In this document: one piece after another, positions 13,862 to 57,560 of the stretch | Layout of the letters: each line of letters opens with the position of its first letter | Numbering within the stretch: position 1 is the first letter of the stretch | Source: Anaerolineales bacterium | Lineage (GTDB): Bacteria; Chloroflexota; Anaerolineae; Anaerolineales; DRMV01 | Assembly: GCA_027023425.1 (NCBI GenBank) | Contig: JALVVL010000044.1 | Coordinates: 1-64,000 of the forward strand | Direction of reading: 5' to 3' | DNA length: 64,000 nucleotides | The notes under the pieces: generated by a model | Told to the model about the DNA's origin: nothing | Database searches by the model: none | The model's input: only the letters and a program-made list of their open reading frames with translations | Made by a program: the position numbers and the translations under genes

Positions 13862-14000
13862 AAAACCCTCCGTGCCAAACGGAGGGTTGAGGTCTGAGCA
13901 CCGCCATCCCTCCGCCGGCATTACCCGGATCAGGTGTACGGGTCGCAGGCTTACGGCCTGCCTCTCAGCCCGGCAACACCGAGCTCCCCGTGCGGCTATT
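13862..14000 (-). promoter_or_regulatory. TPP riboswitch with Shine-Dalgarno-sequestering hairpin
   Basis: On the minus strand the aptamer (about 13998-13901) shows the conserved THI-box blocks GGGCTGAGAGG, GACCCGTACACCTGATC and GGGTAATGCCGGCGGAGGGA. Downstream, 13888-13864 form a 10-bp hairpin AACCCTCCGT/ACGGAGGGTT whose 3' arm holds the thiN Shine-Dalgarno GGAGG. The aptamer 3' strand (GGAGGGAT) could pair with the CCCTCC arm instead and free the ribosome site. TPP binding is therefore inferred to block translation of thiN. Confidence 0.93.
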
Positions 14001-14100: not shown

Positions 14101-14505
14101 ACGGCCTCAGGCCGGCCGGGTGGTCGCGGCGGCTCAGGCCGCCGAGGAAAGTCCGCACTCCACAGGGCACGGCGCCGGGTAACACCCGGGAGGGGGCAAC
14201 CCCTCGGACAGGGCCACAGAAACAAACCGCCAGCGGCCTGCGCAAGCGCAGGTGCGGGCAAGGGTGAAAAGGTGGGGTAAGAGCCCACCGGCGCGTCGGG
14301 TAACCGGCGCGGCCAGGCAACCCCCGTCGGGAGCAAGGCCAAGCAGAGGCGAGCGCGGCTATGCCGCCGGGGCGTGGCCCGCGCCCCCAGAGCCTCGGGT
14401 AGGCCGCACCGAGCTGCGGGGGTAACTCCGCAGCCCAGATAGATGACCACCCGGGCAGGCATCCCTGCCCGACAGAATGCGGCTTACAGGCCGACCTGAG
14501 AGCCC
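14101..14505 (+). ncRNA. rnpB: RNase P RNA, bacterial type A
   Basis: About 400 nt. The universally conserved blocks are in order: GAGGAAAGTCCGCACTCC near 14144, CACAGAAACAAACCGCC, GGCAAGGGTGAAAAGGTG-GGTAAGAGCCCACCG near 14255-14300, and GACAGAATGCGGCTTACAG near 14471. The P1 helix pairs CTCAGGCCGG at the 5' end with CCGACCTGAG at the 3' end. It is the catalytic RNA that trims tRNA 5' leaders. Promoter and terminator flank it. Confidence 0.97.
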
Positions 14506-22475: not shown

Positions 22476-22535
22476 TGGCATTATCCCTGCATCACCAAGG
22501 GCACAAATTTGGGCAAGGGCGCAAGCAGATAGTGT

Positions 22536-22547
22536 TATAATGAAAAT
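22536..22547 (+). promoter_or_regulatory. TATAAT box six bases before the histidine kinase ATG (leaderless start)
   Basis: TATAAT (22536-22541), then GAAAAT, then ATG at 22548. No Shine-Dalgarno is possible because transcription should begin at or next to the A of ATG. Confidence 0.6.
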
Positions 22548-23804
22548 ATGACAAAGAGAAAACCCCTGCCTACCCAATCTGGACAAAACGGTTCCAACAA
22601 ACGCATCCAACACCTGGAGCACCTGTTGGATATAAGCCGTCGCCTGAGTGAGACTTTAGAGCCTCGCGCGGTGCTGGAAAAAGTAGTCCGCTACGCGGCA
22701 GAACTAACCCACAGCGAAGCGGCTTTTATTTTACTCCATGATGAAGAATCGGGCTACCTGAAGTTTGTAACGGCAATGCCAAACAATTGGCGAAACTTGC
22801 ACAACCTGCGAGTTCCAATTCATTCCAGCACTGCTGGGTTAGCGCTCTCAACCGGCAAGCCACAAGTATGGAGCAAGGCCAAAGCGAGCGAGGGCAAAAA
22901 CGATGGGGAAAGATTTTTCTTCGCCCGAAACTTGCTCGCAGTGCCGCTAATGCTCCACGGAGTGGCCATAGGCGTACTTGAAGGGGTGGATAAGGCCGAC
23001 GGCGACTACGATGCCGAAGATATTTACACAATGCAGTTATTCGCCGCGCACGCGGCGGTCGCACTGCACAACGCTCGGCTGATGGAGGAAGTGAAACGCT
23101 CCAACGAAGAACTCATCCGCTTAGACCGGATGAAATCCGACTTTATAGCGATAACCTCGCATGAACTCAGGACGCCATTGGGCATCATCCTCGGCTATGC
23201 AACCCATCTGAGCGCGGCAAAGGACGAAGAATGCCGCACCGCGGCCAACGCCATCTTACGAGCCTCCAAGCGCCTGAAACAATTGGTAGAAGACCTCGGC
23301 GACCTGCGCAACTATGATCGCGGCGCCCTTGTCCTCAAGCGCACACCGGTAGACCTACGAGAAGTGGTAGAAACCACCGTGGGGCGCTTTCAAGCAATGG
23401 CCGAAAAGGGTGGCATTTTGGTGGAAGTGCATCTACCTCCCACTCCGGTGATGGCAAACGTGGACGCCCAAAAAGTCGGCGTAGCCCTTGGGCATTTGGT
23501 AAAGAACGCCATTACCTTCACCGAAAACGGCGGAAGAGTAACGATAGGGCTTTCAACAGAAGACGACATTGTGAAAATTTGGGTAGCCGATACCGGCATC
23601 GGCATTCCCCAAGAGGAAACGGAGCACATCTTCAAGAGTTTCTATCAGGTAGAAGAGCACGCGTCGCGCGCCCACGGCGGTTTAGGGCTTGGACTGCCGG
23701 TAGCAAAAGCCATGATAGAAATGCACGGTGGCACAATTTTGGTTGAAAGCAAAGAAGGGGAAGGCTCGCGCTTCACTATCGTGCTTCCCAAAGGGGAAAT
23801 ATGA
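22548..23804 (+). CDS. GAF-domain sensor histidine kinase
   Basis: 418 residues, with no membrane segment, so it is cytoplasmic. A GAF domain covers about residues 30-180 (NWRNLHNLRVPIHSSTAGLALSTGKP; NLLAVPLMLHGVAIGVLEGVD). The kinase core follows: H-box SHELRTPLGIILGY near residue 208, N-box HLVKNAITFTENGG, G1 DTGIGIP, F-box IFKSFYQVE and G2 GGLGLGLPVAK. It should autophosphorylate in response to a small ligand or redox cue and signal to an unlinked response regulator; none is adjacent. The start six bases after TATAAT suggests a leaderless mRNA. Confidence 0.93.
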   Translation: MTKRKPLPTQSGQNGSNKRIQHLEHLLDISRRLSETLEPRAVLEKVVRYAAELTHSEAAFILLHDEESGYLKFVTAMPNNWRNLHNLRVPIHSSTAGLALSTGKPQVWSKAKASEGKNDGERFFFARNLLAVPLMLHGVAIGVLEGVDKADGDYDAEDIYTMQLFAAHAAVALHNARLMEEVKRSNEELIRLDRMKSDFIAITSHELRTPLGIILGYATHLSAAKDEECRTAANAILRASKRLKQLVEDLGDLRNYDRGALVLKRTPVDLREVVETTVGRFQAMAEKGGILVEVHLPPTPVMANVDAQKVGVALGHLVKNAITFTENGGRVTIGLSTEDDIVKIWVADTGIGIPQEETEHIFKSFYQVEEHASRAHGGLGLGLPVAKAMIEMHGGTILVESKEGEGSRFTIVLPKGEI

Positions 23805-23985: not shown

Positions 23986-24760
23986 TTTTCCGCAAGCGCC
24001 ACTTCCAGCGGAGGGCTAAAAGCGGTGCGGCGGCGCGGCGGACGTAATACTTCGCCACAATCGGCGCGAACCAACTGCCGCCCTCACGGAAGTGCACCCT
24101 CAGCATTTCAGGCCAACAACGGTCATCGTCTTTGATGGTCTTGGCGTTTTGGTGGATGCGGAAATTCGCCCACACGCGCGGCACATAGCGTATCGGCGCA
24201 ATTTTCGCCAACCGAACCCAAAGGTCATAGTCCATTGCAAAGTAGAAAGTGGGGTCTAAAGGGCCGACTTTGCGCCAAAGGTCGGCGCGGAAAAACGCCG
24301 CCTGCTGGGGAATGTGAACATAGCCACGGCGCAAGCGGCGATAATCGGTCTGCGCCGCCGGAAAGCGCCCGATTACCCGCCCTTCCTCATCAATGTAGTT
24401 GGCATCACCGTAAACCATGCCGACTTCGGGGTGACTTTGCAGAAACTCCACCGCCTCGGCCACCGCGTGCGGCTCGTAGGTGTCGTCAGAGTTCAGCCAA
24501 GCAAGGATTTCGCCGTGGGCGTGGGCAAAGCCCTTGTTGATGGCGTCGGTTTGCCCCTTGTCGGGCTCCGAAACCCACCACGCCAGCCGGTCGGCGTATT
24601 TGCGGATGATTTCCACGCTGCCGTCGGATGAGCCGCCGTCAACGATGATGTATTCAATCCGCGGGTAAGTTTGCCCCAGCACCGACCGGATGGTGGCCTC
24701 TAAAAATCGCGCTTGGTTGTAGGAAGGGGTAACGATTGAAACCAGAGGCTGTTTATCCAT
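23969..24760 (-). CDS. Family 2 glycosyltransferase
   Basis: 263 residues with a GT-A fold. The N-terminal strand SIVTPSYNQARFLEATIRSV binds the nucleotide; IEYIIVDGGSSDGS, the DxD-like motif NSDDTYEP near residue 92 and a C-terminal MDYDLWVRLAK region complete the GT2 pattern of enzymes building surface polysaccharide. It has no membrane segment. No other polysaccharide genes are adjacent, so acceptor and sugar are unknown. The last residues (KKTTD) and the TAG stop are read from the adjacent word array. TATCAT followed by exactly six bases precedes the ATG with no ribosome site, suggesting a leaderless transcript. Confidence 0.9.
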   Translation of the reverse strand: MDKQPLVSIVTPSYNQARFLEATIRSVLGQTYPRIEYIIVDGGSSDGSVEIIRKYADRLAWWVSEPDKGQTDAINKGFAHAHGEILAWLNSDDTYEPHAVAEAVEFLQSHPEVGMVYGDANYIDEEGRVIGRFPAAQTDYRRLRRGYVHIPQQAAFFRADLWRKVGPLDPTFYFAMDYDLWVRLAKIAPIRYVPRVWANFRIHQNAKTIKDDDRCWPEMLRVHFREGGSWFAPIVAKYYVRRAAAPLLALRWKWRLRKKKTTD

Positions 24761-24766
24761 ACCGCA

Positions 24767-24775
24767 ATGATAGCA
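24767..24775 (-). promoter_or_regulatory. Extended -10 box of the glycosyltransferase gene (leaderless start)
   Basis: Minus strand: TGC-TATCAT (24767-24772 plus TGC), then TGCGGT, then the ATG at 24760. Same geometry as at 22536, 45997 and 57555. Confidence 0.5.
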
Positions 24776-40516: not shown

Positions 40517-41194
40517 TTACTCTTGGCGCTTGGCTTTGTTTGCCGCTGTTATGAGGGTTTTGAGGCCGGCGCGCGCGCCCTCGGGATGCCCGAACACCGC
40601 GCTCGCCGCCACAAAAACCTGCGCTCCGGCTTCCAGCGCTTGCGGCAATGTGTTGGCGTTGATGCCGCCGTCAATTTCCACCAGCGCCTCGGGGTTGCGC
40701 TCGTCCAGTTCAGCGCGCAGACGGCGCACCTTTGGCAAAACTTCGGGCAAAAACTTCTGCCCCGAAAAGCCGGGGTTCACCGACATCACCAGCACCAAAT
40801 CCACAAGGTGCAAAACGGGGAAAACCGCCTCGGCGGGAGTGCCGGGGTTCAAAGCCACGCCCGCGCGGCAGCCAAGTGCACGGATTTGTTGGAGCGCGCG
40901 GTGGATGTGAGGCGTGGCCTCCACGTGCACTGTGATTGAGTCCGCCCCGGCTTTAGCAAAAGCGGGCAACAACGGCTCGGGGCGTTCCACCATCAGGTGG
41001 ACGTCCAGCAAGCGGTCGGTGGCGCGGCGCGCGGCCGCGAGCACTGCCGTTCCCAACGTGAGATTGGGCACAAAGTGCCCGTCCATCACGTCAATGTGGA
41101 TCCAATCCGCACCGGCTTCTACCACCTCGGCTATTTGCTCGCCAAGGCGGGTCAAATCGGCAGAAAGGATTGAGGGGGCGTAGTAAATCGGCAT
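40517..41194 (-). CDS. rpe: Ribulose-phosphate 3-epimerase
   Basis: 225 residues, a TIM barrel that interconverts ribulose 5-phosphate and xylulose 5-phosphate. Hallmarks: APSILSADLTRLGEQI, the metal ligand region WIHIDVMDGHFVPNLTLG, DVHLMVERP, LVLVMSVNPGFSGQKF and LVEIDGGINANTLPQALEAGAQVFVAASAVFG. The start at 41194 corresponds to the family N-terminus. Upstream, TGC-TATAAT lies only nine bases before the ATG and no Shine-Dalgarno is visible, so the mRNA is probably leaderless or nearly so. With tkt and rpiB in the same window it completes most of the non-oxidative pentose phosphate set. Confidence 0.95.
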   Translation of the reverse strand: MPIYYAPSILSADLTRLGEQIAEVVEAGADWIHIDVMDGHFVPNLTLGTAVLAAARRATDRLLDVHLMVERPEPLLPAFAKAGADSITVHVEATPHIHRALQQIRALGCRAGVALNPGTPAEAVFPVLHLVDLVLVMSVNPGFSGQKFLPEVLPKVRRLRAELDERNPEALVEIDGGINANTLPQALEAGAQVFVAASAVFGHPEGARAGLKTLITAANKAKRQE

Positions 41195-41203
41195 AGCGGC
41201 GCA

Positions 41204-41212
41204 ATTATAGCA
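41204..41212 (-). promoter_or_regulatory. Extended -10 promoter of rpe
   Basis: Minus strand: TGC-TATAAT (TATAAT at 41204-41209), nine bases before the rpe ATG. A convincing -35 hexamer is lacking. Confidence 0.5.
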
Positions 41213-41793: not shown

Positions 41794-43416
41794 CTAATGC
41801 TCCTGCGGGGGCAGGATGCTTTCGGTGTACTCCAAGGTGGGTTCGCACCCTTTGGGGAAATGCGCCCGAACGTGTTCCCAATCCAACGGCTCGCGCCTGC
41901 CGTGTTTATCTTTTGAGTTGTAAGTGCGCAGCAGCGCTTCGTAAATGCAATCGGGGCAGTTGTAGCCGGCAATTGTAAAGCGCCACAGGTCGGTGTAGGT
42001 GCTAACCATCCCCGGCGAGCGTCGGGTAATGTTGCGCACGGTTTGCCCCATTTGGCGGCAATTTGCCCTTAGCAGGCGGGCAAACAATTCCATGCTTGTG
42101 GGGATGCGCTGGTTGTCTATTCCAAATGGGCAATCGGGGCAAGTGAGGTCGGCCTGCACCCACAGCGAGCCGTATAGCAACTCTTTCTGCGGTTGGGAAA
42201 GCCCGCTGTAGCCGTGGCGGCATTTCCACGCTCCGAGCATTGAACGGCACATGGGGTTGAAAAGGTCGGGGTCCCACAATAGGAGAGTGTCCATGCCGCT
42301 CGGGGTGAGTTGCCCAAAGCCCACTTCGTGAATTTCGGGGTATTCGGCCGGCCAAAATTGGCTTTCGCGGGCTATAAGCCGTTTGAAAAGCACCGCCGGG
42401 ATGCCGATTTTTTGGGCTACATCCAAAATTTGGGGGTCAAAGCGGTTTTGCCATGCTTTGACGGCTTCGCGCGCCATCCCCATTCCGCAGGCGTTGGCAG
42501 TGCCGTCCGGCTGAAGGCCGCCGTTTGGGCAATCGGAGGCATCCACCACGCGGTTGGCTATCAACCGCCCTGCAAGGTAAACGTAAGGGATGTCGGTCGC
42601 TAAGCCCTCGGGGGTTGATGGCGTAGTAGCCCACTCGGGCAGGTCTTTTATCGGCGGCATGGCTTCCCAAGTACGGGCGCACATATCGGCGCCGCGCTGG
42701 TCCCACGCTGGGCTGATGATGTCCACCAAGTCGGTGCCATCTTTCTGAGGCACAAGCCGTATTTTTGCGTAAACGGAGCGGTTGGAACGGGGCGCGCTGG
42801 AGACGGCTATTATGCGCATTGTGCGTTCAACCTGCCGGTCGCTTGCTTCAATTTGAACTTCGCAACTTGCCCCCGGGCAGGTTATTTTTCCTTTGCCGAA
42901 AAGGTAAACCTGAATTTGTTTGATGTAGGCCTCGGGCAGCGGCTCTTCGGCGGTGATTCGCAAAGTCGCTACGCCGGGGCATTGAAAGTGCGGCAGGGCA
43001 GGGGTGCAATTTTCCAACGCAAGGTGGATGCGCGGCAAGGGGTAAACGTGAATCACATTGTGAGACACGGTTTTTTTGCCGACAAAGTGGAGGTAATAAC
43101 CGGTGCAGGCGGTAACGTCGCCGCCGTTGAGGGCGGCGGGGCACGGCGGGGTGAGACGCCATGCTTTGTACACATCCCACCCGCAGAAACGGTAGACGTC
43201 ATCCGGCGTTGGGTTTTCGGGGTGGTTGATTTGGAGAGTGCAGGCGATGTGTTGTGGGTCGTTCCAAGGCAGCAGCCACCAGATGTAGACGGTTTCAACC
43301 ACGCTTTCCTCGCGCCAGCGCGGCGGCAGTTTTTTAGCCTCGGCGTGCCGCGCGCCAAACAATCCCCCCACTGCCAGTACAAGAATCAACGCAAGGATTT
43401 GCCTATGCCGTCGCAT
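41794..43416 (-). CDS. Secreted cysteine-rich protein with lytic-transglycosylase-like domain
   Basis: 540 residues with an N-terminal signal peptide (ILALILVLAVGGLFGARHAEA). The first 250 residues are beta-rich with several cysteines. Residues about 330-400 carry an SLT-like pattern: ILDVAQKIGIPAVLFKRLIA, then RESQFWP with the candidate catalytic Glu, and EVGFGQLTPSG, matching the ES...GxGQ signature of goose-lysozyme-like transglycosylases. It contains more than a dozen cysteines, many in CxxC-like pairs (CPDCPFG, CPDCIYE), pointing to disulfides. It lies in a minus-strand run with mltG, which supports a cell-wall role. Activity is inferred. Confidence 0.65.
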   Translation of the reverse strand: MRRHRQILALILVLAVGGLFGARHAEAKKLPPRWREESVVETVYIWWLLPWNDPQHIACTLQINHPENPTPDDVYRFCGWDVYKAWRLTPPCPAALNGGDVTACTGYYLHFVGKKTVSHNVIHVYPLPRIHLALENCTPALPHFQCPGVATLRITAEEPLPEAYIKQIQVYLFGKGKITCPGASCEVQIEASDRQVERTMRIIAVSSAPRSNRSVYAKIRLVPQKDGTDLVDIISPAWDQRGADMCARTWEAMPPIKDLPEWATTPSTPEGLATDIPYVYLAGRLIANRVVDASDCPNGGLQPDGTANACGMGMAREAVKAWQNRFDPQILDVAQKIGIPAVLFKRLIARESQFWPAEYPEIHEVGFGQLTPSGMDTLLLWDPDLFNPMCRSMLGAWKCRHGYSGLSQPQKELLYGSLWVQADLTCPDCPFGIDNQRIPTSMELFARLLRANCRQMGQTVRNITRRSPGMVSTYTDLWRFTIAGYNCPDCIYEALLRTYNSKDKHGRREPLDWEHVRAHFPKGCEPTLEYTESILPPQEH

Positions 43417-45552: not shown

Positions 45553-45990
45553 TTAGGCAAGGTGCTGTATGGGCTTTGTGCTGGATTGGGCATCTAAGTA
45601 ATCTTGCAAAATCACGGTGGCGGCAATGGCGTCAATGCGTTTTTTGCGGCGGCGAGAGACCCGCATAGAGCGCCACGCCTCGGTGGCTTTTTGGGTGCTG
45701 TGGGTTTCATCCCAAAGCACCACCTTTGCCGGGGAAATTGCCCTCACCGCGGCGGCTAAATTTGCGGCGCGCCGCGCCTGCAGGGTGGTTGCCTCGCCGT
45801 TGGCGGCGGTGGCTTGGCCTATCACTATCACCGCAGCGCCTTTTTCTGCCGCGAGCCGAGCAATCGCCTCTGCGTCTTCCTTGCGCGACCTATGGCGAAT
45901 TACCCCCACGGGGTTCGCTATTGTGCCCGTGGGGTCGGATATAGCAAGGCCTATGAAACGCTCTCCGGGGTCAACTGCCAAAATTCGCAC
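45553..45990 (-). CDS. ruvX: Putative pre-16S rRNA nuclease/Holliday-junction resolvase RuvX (YqgF)
   Basis: 145 residues with an RNase H fold. LAVDPGERFIGLAISD contains the first catalytic Asp; VIGQ and LWDETHSTQKA (second acidic site), then KRIDAIAATVILQDYLD (third Asp), complete the family pattern. It begins with GTG, exactly six bases after TATAAT (45997-46002, extended by TGC) and with no Shine-Dalgarno, so it is probably translated from a leaderless mRNA. First gene of the ruvX-mltG minus-strand run. Confidence 0.93.
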   Translation of the reverse strand: MRILAVDPGERFIGLAISDPTGTIANPVGVIRHRSRKEDAEAIARLAAEKGAAVIVIGQATAANGEATTLQARRAANLAAAVRAISPAKVVLWDETHSTQKATEAWRSMRVSRRRKKRIDAIAATVILQDYLDAQSSTKPIQHLA

Positions 45991-45996
45991 GGGGAA

Positions 45997-46005
45997 ATTA
46001 TAGCA
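45997..46005 (-). promoter_or_regulatory. Extended -10 promoter of ruvX (leaderless start)
   Basis: Minus strand: TGC-TATAAT, then TTCCCC, then GTG. No clear -35 hexamer; the TGn extension may compensate. Confidence 0.55.
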
Positions 46006-54535: not shown

Positions 54536-56755
54536 TTATTCAATCGGCGCTTGGTAGATTTGCGAACCGACGGCTATGAACAGCACATGCGTGTCGGGGT
54601 CTACAGCAAAAGCGGTGGCCGGTGCGCGGTGCTCCAGCGGCGTGGAAGGGCGGTATTGGGTCACGAAGCGCAATTGCAGTGAAAACTGGTAGACCGCCTG
54701 CGTTTGCGGATCTAACAACAGCAAAGAGGGGTCGGGCGGCGGTTGCATGGCAATTTGAGCAAAGCGCGCATCCGGAATGACCGGCCCATCGCTTCTGCCC
54801 GGGCGCGGGTCGTGAAACTTGAGGGGTTTGCACTCGGTTTTTTCCAGCGCCGGGGTGCGCTGGCAGAATGTCACCTCACCGGTCTTCAGGAGCATGTAAA
54901 GGTTGCCGCGCGCTACTGCAAAATCTATGGCATTGCTCACCGCTGGCGGCGTCGCTCCTGTGAAATAACTGTAAGGAGTGCTGTTGAAGGTAGGGGCGTT
55001 GCCGATTATTGCAATTGTGCGGATGGCGGGGTCAAGCACATACAACTTTCCACCCACATAGGCAATGGCCTTGGGATTTTTCCATGTTCGGGGTGTGGGT
55101 TGGGGAAGCGGGTGGCCGATTGCATTGCGGTTGGGGGCGCAGAGCACGTAATTGCCGCGGGAATCAATCCCCACTATCCGAGGCCCATCCTCAGAAAGTG
55201 GAAGTGGGGCTATGTCTACCAATTTGGAAACCGTGATTGAGCCGTAACTCCCCGCCCCACAGCGGAAATCGTCGTCCGGCCGGTAGAGGGCGCCCTCTTG
55301 CTGGAAGTGCAAAACTTTGCCGCTGGCCGAATCTAAGGCATACATATCGCCGCCTTGAAGGATGAGGCGCGTTATTACCGTCCCCGGCGGAGCGCGGCGG
55401 CTGAGCGCTGGCACAAAATTCAGCCTGCGGATGCCGTCAAGTTCGTCAAGGGCTTTCTCAAGCCGCTCGCGCAGGGCGCGGGATTGCTTAGTTTGCAGGT
55501 AGGACTCAGCGATGTCAAGATCTGCGAGGGCAGTTTGGATGGCGTTGTGCCGCGCTACCGGCTCTTTCAGAGCGAAGGCTTTAGCGGCTTCGGCTTGGGC
55601 GCGGGCAAAGTGGGCTTGGTACTGCTCCATCCGTCCACGCCGCAGGTAAACTATCACCGCCATCGTGACGATTATCAGCGGCACGGCTACCGCCATCAGC
55701 GCCATTAGCGAGCGCGGCAGTGCGAACAGATCTTCGCTCGGCAACATGGCAGCGGAAATTCTGCCGAGCGCCGCGCCAATGTTTTCGCCCGCCCCCCAAA
55801 TTGCGCGGCCTGCCTTGCGCGCTGGTTCGGCCAGCGGGGCAAGCGAAGGAAGGCGCAAGCGGTGCTTGGCTTTGGTCGGTTTTGGGGATGGCTCTGCTTT
55901 TAGTTCGGGCGGTTCGGCAGGATGGGTTGGCGGCGCGGCCTCGGCCGTTGGGAGAGCAGTTTGGGGCTTTGGCTGAGCCTGCCGGGGCGTTTCCTGCGGT
56001 TGGGGATGGGCGGCGGGCGGCATTTTCGGGGTGGTGGCCGATGGAGTGGTCGGTTTGGCGCGCGGCGCTTTCTCCTCCAGCGCTTTTTGTATCGGCGCGA
56101 TATGGAGTTCGCCTTTGCCCGTGCCCGTGGTCACCAGCACCGCGGCGGCCCCAACATCGGCCATAACCGCTTTGGCTATTTCGGCGAGGTCGGGTTGCCC
56201 TTCAATTTGCGGCGGCGAGGCGGGGGTGAGCAAAAGGGCGTCACCATTTTGCCATTGAGCGCTGGCAAAGTACAGCGGTGTGCTCCGCCCAAGGCCTAAG
56301 CCATTGCCCGCCGATTGGTCGTGGAAATGCCGCTGTTCTTTTCCAAACAGCAGGGCGTGCATGGGGCCCGAAAGGGCGAGGTACAGGTTTTCGCCGCGCC
56401 ACACTGCCATTGCAAGGGTGGCAATGGTTTTTTCTTGGAGGGAATTTGCTTGGCGGTTGCGTTTCAGCAGGTAAATGTTGAGAGCAGAGGCCAGTTCTTT
56501 CAGGGCGCTGGTTACCGAGCCCGGGGTGGCAAAGTAGTGGTTTGCCAAGCGGGCGAGGAGTTTTTTTTGCTCTTTGGAGGGCAGAGCGCCGTTTGCAAAG
56601 TGCATGAAGATAAGCAAGCGGTCGCGGCGGCGCATACGATGCGTTTTGCGCCCGCGCAAAAACACGTTCACCCCTGCAGGCGCTTCCTTTCCCCCACCGG
56701 TTGGGGTGAAGTACAGGTAAAAATCTCGGGAAAATTGCTCGTCTTTTTTCGCCAC
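54536..56755 (-). CDS. Large membrane protein with PP2C-like N-terminus and extracytoplasmic beta-propeller-like domain
   Basis: 739 residues. About 1-215 resembles a degenerate PP2C phosphatase fold (LLIFMHFANGALPS, ATLAMAVWRGENLYLALSGP, GDALLLTPAS), but the acidic metal ligands (DG, GD...DG) are not evident. A Pro/Ala/Thr/Lys-rich linker (about 220-300), a single membrane helix (near 365-385, LMALMAVAVPLIIVTMAVIVYL), a short coiled region (390-440) and a C-terminal region of repeated WD/NHL-like beta strands (AIAYVGGKLYVLDPAIRTI; AVARGNLYMLLKTGE) follow. Start GTG at 56755, seven bases after the LysM gene stop. It looks like a transmembrane sensor; function unknown. Confidence 0.65.
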   Translation of the reverse strand: MAKKDEQFSRDFYLYFTPTGGGKEAPAGVNVFLRGRKTHRMRRRDRLLIFMHFANGALPSKEQKKLLARLANHYFATPGSVTSALKELASALNIYLLKRNRQANSLQEKTIATLAMAVWRGENLYLALSGPMHALLFGKEQRHFHDQSAGNGLGLGRSTPLYFASAQWQNGDALLLTPASPPQIEGQPDLAEIAKAVMADVGAAAVLVTTGTGKGELHIAPIQKALEEKAPRAKPTTPSATTPKMPPAAHPQPQETPRQAQPKPQTALPTAEAAPPTHPAEPPELKAEPSPKPTKAKHRLRLPSLAPLAEPARKAGRAIWGAGENIGAALGRISAAMLPSEDLFALPRSLMALMAVAVPLIIVTMAVIVYLRRGRMEQYQAHFARAQAEAAKAFALKEPVARHNAIQTALADLDIAESYLQTKQSRALRERLEKALDELDGIRRLNFVPALSRRAPPGTVITRLILQGGDMYALDSASGKVLHFQQEGALYRPDDDFRCGAGSYGSITVSKLVDIAPLPLSEDGPRIVGIDSRGNYVLCAPNRNAIGHPLPQPTPRTWKNPKAIAYVGGKLYVLDPAIRTIAIIGNAPTFNSTPYSYFTGATPPAVSNAIDFAVARGNLYMLLKTGEVTFCQRTPALEKTECKPLKFHDPRPGRSDGPVIPDARFAQIAMQPPPDPSLLLLDPQTQAVYQFSLQLRFVTQYRPSTPLEHRAPATAFAVDPDTHVLFIAVGSQIYQAPIE

Positions 56756-56762
56756 TGTTTTT

Positions 56763-57548
56763 TTACCGTCGGGATGAGGTCAAGCGGCGCCCGTACCACC
56801 AAATTGCCAACGCGAGCAGGATGAAAACCGCGCCGATAATTCCCAAAACGGGCGAATGTTTTTGGGGCTGGGGCTGTGTTGGAGGCGGGAGTGCTTTTTG
56901 CGCTCCGAAGGTCACGTAGGTTGTGTCGCCGGCTTGCAGGTCAACACGGGCGGTGGTTTTGGTGGTCGGGTTGTAGCCCGGCGGCACTCCCATGCTGATG
57001 GTGTATTGGCCTTCCGGAAGGTGGTCAAAGCAGACAAAGTCATTGCCGGTTTTCGCCGTGTGGGCGGTTTCGCCCCTTTGGCCGCTTATGCTGATTGCGC
57101 CGTTGGGCAGAGGGGCTTCGGTGTCTTCTTCATAGATGCCGTTGCCGTCGCGGTCGTTGTAGAGCAGAATGCAAATTTTCCCCTCGCCGGGGATTTTAGT
57201 CGGGGTTGGGGTGGCTGTGGCCTGTTGCCCCACGCCACCCGGCGTTGGGGAAGGCCGCTCGGATACTCCGATGCCGAGGATCAGAATTTCGCCCACGCGG
57301 ATGGTTTGGTTGGGTTCCATGTTGTTGAGGGCGCGCAGTTTCTCCACTGAAATGCCTGCGACGGCGGCAATGTGCCAGAGGCTATCGCCGGGCTTCACTT
57401 TGTAGCGGATTATCCCATCCGCGCCCGGGGTGGGGGTTGGGAAGGGGGTAATTTTCAAAGTGGGCGACGATGCGCTCACCGGCGCTCGGCTGAGTATCAA
57501 TGCCAACGCCGCTATCAACACGGTCACAAAAGCCAATCGTTTGGGCAT
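56763..57548 (-). CDS. LysM-domain membrane-anchored surface protein
   Basis: 261 residues. Signal peptide (residues 1-26), Pro/Thr stretch, then one LysM peptidoglycan-binding domain near residues 48-92 (YKVKPGDSLWHIAAVAGISV, LNNMEPNQTIRVGEILIL). A second Pro/Thr linker leads to an SdrD/B-type beta domain (ILLYNDRDGNGIYEEDTEAPLPNGAI) and a C-terminal membrane helix with RRLTSSRR. The start at 57548 sits six bases after TATAAT and lacks a Shine-Dalgarno, so the mRNA is probably leaderless; the open frame to 57761 overlaps the divergent gntR region. First of a three-gene unit with the sensor-like and PAP2 genes. Confidence 0.82.
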   Translation of the reverse strand: MPKRLAFVTVLIAALALILSRAPVSASSPTLKITPFPTPTPGADGIIRYKVKPGDSLWHIAAVAGISVEKLRALNNMEPNQTIRVGEILILGIGVSERPSPTPGGVGQQATATPTPTKIPGEGKICILLYNDRDGNGIYEEDTEAPLPNGAISISGQRGETAHTAKTGNDFVCFDHLPEGQYTISMGVPPGYNPTTKTTARVDLQAGDTTYVTFGAQKALPPPTQPQPQKHSPVLGIIGAVFILLALAIWWYGRRLTSSRR

Positions 57549-57554
57549 GATTTC

Positions 57555-57560
57555 ATTATA
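57555..57560 (-). promoter_or_regulatory. TATAAT box of the LysM gene (leaderless start)
   Basis: Minus strand: TATAAT, then GAAATC, then ATG at 57548. Fourth instance of TATAAT-like box, six bases, start codon. Confidence 0.55.

Follow-up and report, generated by a model that had tools for sequence, protein, structure and literature searches.

Leaderless genes are well known, for example in Actinobacteria and Deinococcota, and represent a minority way of gene start.

Translation of leaderless mRNAs relies on 70S or initiator-tRNA-loaded ribosomes that bind the 5′-terminal AUG or GUG directly (PMC9031893). In Deinococcus-Thermus, experiments by Zhong et al. (2025) established a -10 motif located mainly 6-7 bp before the ORF, with leaderless mRNA as the product and a dispensable -35 element (PMC12340547). 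In M. tuberculosis, the mapping by Cortes et al. (2013) placed transcription starts directly on the start codon for about one quarter of the genes with a primary start site (PMC3898074). The accessible text of the survey by Zheng et al. (2011) describes TA-led genes, which lack a Shine-Dalgarno (SD) sequence and have a Pribnow-like signal some 10 bp ahead of the start, and reports for Chloroflexi 4 of 12 genomes, a mean of 4.7% of genes and a TAtaaT-type signal (PMC3160421). The Anaerolineales genes described below are of the same kind as this TA-led class, since they also combine a Pribnow-like signal with the lack of an SD. As far as that text goes, the survey has no order-level resolution; what we add is the assignment to Anaerolineales, an initiator bias and conservation among orthologues (PMC3160421). 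A search of the accessible literature for mapped transcription start sites in Chloroflexota found no paper.

Five gene starts with a box in the window

The window, a stretch of 64,000 nucleotides, is one contig of a 2.2 Mb, 45-contig Anaerolineales MAG (Chloroflexota). For the calling of gene starts, a simple in-house script took the place of a standard gene finder. A -10 box was defined as TANNNT with at least 2/3 inner matches, and d denotes the number of bases between this box and the start codon. A scan of every called gene on the contig revealed exactly five whose start follows a box by 5-10 bases, and none of these five starts had an SD. The sites are the following:

22533..22541, plus strand: histidine kinase (HK) site tgtTATAATgaaaatATG, extended -10 TGT-TATAAT with the hexamer at 22536-22541
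22542..22547, plus strand: HK spacer GAAAAT, six bases, followed by the ATG at 22548
22548-23804, plus strand: HK gene, a GAF-HisKA-HATPase histidine kinase
24767..24775, minus strand: family 2 glycosyltransferase (GT) site tgcTATCATtgcggtATG, extended -10 TGC-TATCAT with the hexamer at 24767-24772, six bases to the ATG at 24760
41204..41212, minus strand: rpe site tgcTATAATtgcgccgctATG, extended -10 TGC-TATAAT with the hexamer at 41204-41209, nine bases to the ATG at 41194
45997..46005, minus strand: ruvX site tgcTATAATttccccGTG, extended -10 TGC-TATAAT with the hexamer at 45997-46002, six bases to the GTG at 45990
57555..57560, minus strand: site of the gene for a LysM-domain protein gggTATAATgaaatcATG, TATAAT with GGG before the box, six bases to the ATG at 57548

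The initial annotation had described four genes with a gap of six bases, rpe with nine, and no SD at any of them, and all five sites read accordingly. The TGC that it had noted ahead of three of the five boxes was also there, and the TGT of HK is a TGn as well, so that this element precedes four of the five boxes. TATAAT-like boxes were present at all five starts, as claimed, with the qualification that the GT hexamer reads TATCAT, not TATAAT. In rpe, a G occupies position seven past the box; the closest relative of this gene was found in an Anaerolineales MAG (78% identity) and the next ones in other Chloroflexi.

Elsewhere in the window lie a bacterial class A RNase P RNA (14108-14502, plus strand, 226 bits) and a TPP riboswitch (13889-14000, minus strand, 66 bits), the latter just upstream of the gene at 13181-13858/13921 (minus strand), whose called start it overlaps. 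Two coding genes on the minus strand, 54536-56755 (739 aa) and 41794-43416 (540 aa), had no NCBIfam or Pfam match at E 0.001.

Distance between box and start codon across genomes

For the genome of the window, pattern counts over the whole genome were combined with a 0.8 Mb sample of stretches comprising 659 called genes. The exact pattern TATAAT-N6-ATG occurred 20 times in the 2.2 Mb, compared with 2 occurrences of the reversed-pattern control (Poisson P 6e-14), and TATAAT-N3-ATG did not occur in the whole genome. A coding frame with a positive coding score was opened by 19 of the 20 matches. The loose pattern TANNNT-N6-ATG showed no excess over its control (341 versus 322), which indicates that TATAAT-like boxes before genes, and not TANNNT hexamers in general, make up the signal. 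When distances were anchored on the called starts of the sample, boxes at d = 6, 7, 8 and 9 numbered 8, 5, 3 and 2, against 1.4 expected per position. The excess was significant at d = 6 alone (8 versus 1.4, P 1.3e-4), d = 6-9 together held 18 boxes versus 5.8 expected, and a single box was found at d = 2-5. A distance histogram was one of the checks proposed by the initial annotation, and the peak at six was present in the window's genome as well as in three further genomes of the order. The constant spacing it had postulated gave way to a peak at six with a shoulder to nine; that is, the spacing is constrained to 6-9 bases, not fixed.

The three other genomes represent two families beside that of the window, G028 and G095 sharing family f12. 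Their spacing peaks were stronger than that of the window's genome, with almost nothing at d = 2-5: counts at d = 6, 7, 8 and 9 were 10, 7, 4 and 6 in G028, 23, 10, 7 and 7 in G038, and 15, 8, 8 and 3 in G095. Internal in-frame start codons, taken as a control, gave no comparable spacing peak. The peak at six was absent from the sample of G109, which belongs to another Chloroflexota lineage and whose boxes lay mostly 25-45 bases upstream, as expected for leadered genes. TATAAT-like boxes in the sample of the window's genome also formed a second, broad hump about 25-44 bases before the start, with an SD in 47 of 83 cases; boxes 24-44 bases upstream in this genome are the expected leadered class.

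On a wider scale, exact d = 6 matches in nine Anaerolineales genomes, eight of them in family f12, amounted to 531, versus 51 for the reversed pattern and 66 at d = 3; the orthologue comparison described below spans more families. In 72 other Chloroflexota the corresponding counts were 778, 353 and 426. A moderate excess of TATAAT-N6-ATG over TATAAT-N3-ATG was seen in other Chloroflexota lineages (30 versus 5 in G105, 32 versus 14 in G107 and 24 versus 6 in G048), and leaderless genes may hence also exist outside Anaerolineales.

As gross counts from which no background was subtracted, boxes at 6-9 bases preceded 18 of the 659 sampled genes of the window's genome, 27 of 365 in G028, 46 of 379 in G038 and 34 of 336 in G095. 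Because most genes of the window's genome look leadered and the 3′ tail of its 16S rRNA (GGATCACCTCCTTTCT) has an intact anti-SD, leaderless-type genes are a minority class here, of about 3% of sampled genes.

Initiator, promoter elements and gene context

The base at -1 was a pyrimidine (C or T) in 50 of 56 starts with d = 6 (89%), versus 53% where no box preceded the start (P 1.5e-8); together with the A or G that opens the start codon, it matches the usual YR initiator rule. None of these 56 starts had an SD, versus 28% of starts without a box; the figure was 2 of 70 (3%) at d = 7-9 and 54% at starts whose box lay 24-44 bases away. ATG made up 93% of the d = 6 starts versus 60% of the box-less ones. 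At d = 7, purines were rare in the sixth position past the box (27%) and rarer still in the seventh (13%), which leaves the A of the ATG as the nearest purine. At d = 9, a purine occupied the seventh base in 78% of cases, suggesting a 3-nt leader. By this pattern, rpe probably starts transcription at the G that is its seventh base after the box, with a leader of 3 nt.

Upstream of the hexamer, 17 of the 18 boxes at d = 6-9 in the window's genome had a G at -14 (TGn or CGn), and TGn was found ahead of 10 of the 18. Pooled over the order, the TGn share was 20% at d = 6 and 29% at d = 7-9, higher than the 7% of TANNNT promoters that carry TGN in M. tuberculosis (PMC3898074). TGn was also common in the class with a box at 24-44 bases (25 of 83), so an extended -10 does not set leaderless genes apart. 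A -35 consensus showed no clear enrichment relative to upstream regions after shuffling; M. tuberculosis likewise has -10-dominated promoters without a -35 consensus (PMC3898074).

Genes with a near box were divergent from their neighbour in 60 of 124 cases (48%), versus 296 of 1586 genes (19%), and close and co-directional in 18 of 124 (15%), versus 595 of 1586 (38%; P 6e-8). Near-box genes are thus mostly the first of a transcription unit.

All five box-bearing genes of the window have orthologues in other genera or families that keep a box at 6-10 bases while the bases of the spacer have changed. The HK orthologue of G001, a genome of the same genus, retains TGTTATAAT-6-ATG with an altered spacer, and the arrangement is kept in several relatives, also with GTG. 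It is retained in four relatives of GT, with orthologues at d = 6 or 8, in about ten of the LysM gene at d = 6-9 and in about a dozen of rpe at d = 6-10. For ruvX, G001 has the same box, and four other genomes, scattered members of other families, have boxes at d = 6-9. Many orthologues carry no box, those of ruvX above all.

Proposed promoters and alternative readings

We assign a probability of about 0.9 to the reading that these genes have sigma-70 promoters, often with an extended -10, from which transcription begins at the start codon or no more than about 3 nt away from it, and that their mRNAs are translated leaderless. We infer all three components, namely where transcription starts, which sigma factor acts and that translation is leaderless. 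A -10 box of the housekeeping (sigma-70/SigA) type would sit directly before the ORF and, as the -10 hexamer occupies -12 to -7, a six-base spacer would make the initial base of the start codon +1. The same base would be +1 at d = 7, and at d = 8-9 transcription would begin as much as about 3 nt ahead of the start codon. The mRNA would then be too short upstream to hold an SD, and its translation would be leaderless. A start on the first base of the start codon, as the initial annotation had predicted, fits the d = 6 genes, in line with the pyrimidine at -1, the lack of an SD, the first position in the unit and the conservation among orthologues; in rpe, the start more likely lies 3 nt upstream.

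TANNNT-like hexamers are common and the five sites were hand-picked, as would suit AT-rich hexamers near starts that had been noticed by eye among about 60 genes. Such a chance origin was refuted by the distance histogram with its controls: the peak at exactly six is significant in four genomes and missing from the outgroup sample, the exact pattern outnumbers its reversed form by 20 to 2 in the window's genome, and the box is conserved in orthologues, which leaves chance with next to no probability. Real promoters could also be followed by translation from a downstream, SD-led codon, giving ordinary leaders in which the near-box ATG is incidental. For HK, the only SD-like alternative is TTG 22626, which has GGAG in front and which the coding score had favoured in the initial round of gene calling. 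However, alignments of HK homologues begin at residue 15-19, ahead of this TTG (residue 27). The RuvX profile match begins at residue 1 and those of Rpe and GT at residues 6-8, only a few residues from the near-box codon. Homologues of the LysM protein begin mostly at residues 55-76 of the longest frame, in which the near-box ATG is residue 64, and in the G001 orthologue the part upstream is out of frame. Homology thereby supports the near-box codons as the probable translation starts, and the sharp spacing and the preponderance of ATG at d = 6 over box-less starts also speak against a downstream start, which we consider very unlikely.

An upstream AT bias has been called ambiguous between a Pribnow box and S1 binding (PMC5397173), and the boxes might accordingly represent an A/T-rich element (S1-type or A/U-rich enhancer) that acts in translation on a longer mRNA from a farther promoter. 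The element found here is, however, a specific TATAAT at 6-9 bases, often with TGn or the G at -14; moreover, the -1 base obeys the initiator rule and near-box genes mostly head transcription units. A translational element is extremely unlikely in view of these features.

The proposed sigma-70 promoters, placed directly at the start codon, would have the same architecture as those of Deinococcus-Thermus, where it was determined experimentally; the motif there is TANNNT/TACACT in about 30% of ORFs, whereas about 3-12% of the genes sampled here have TATAAT, often with TGn (PMC12340547). It seems likely that leaderless transcripts are a regular second mode of gene start in the whole of Anaerolineales, reaching about one tenth of the genes in some families and far above the level of other sampled Chloroflexota, with the start codon doubling as the YR initiator in promoters dominated by the -10. 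The kind of gene itself is known; what is new is the signature at the level of the order and the analysis of the initiator. Gene-finding programs will place such starts wrongly if they require an SD, and modelling the leaderless class would improve start-codon and promoter calls in these mostly uncultured bacteria. Anaerolineales would also add another separate lineage for studies of why leaderless genes persist.
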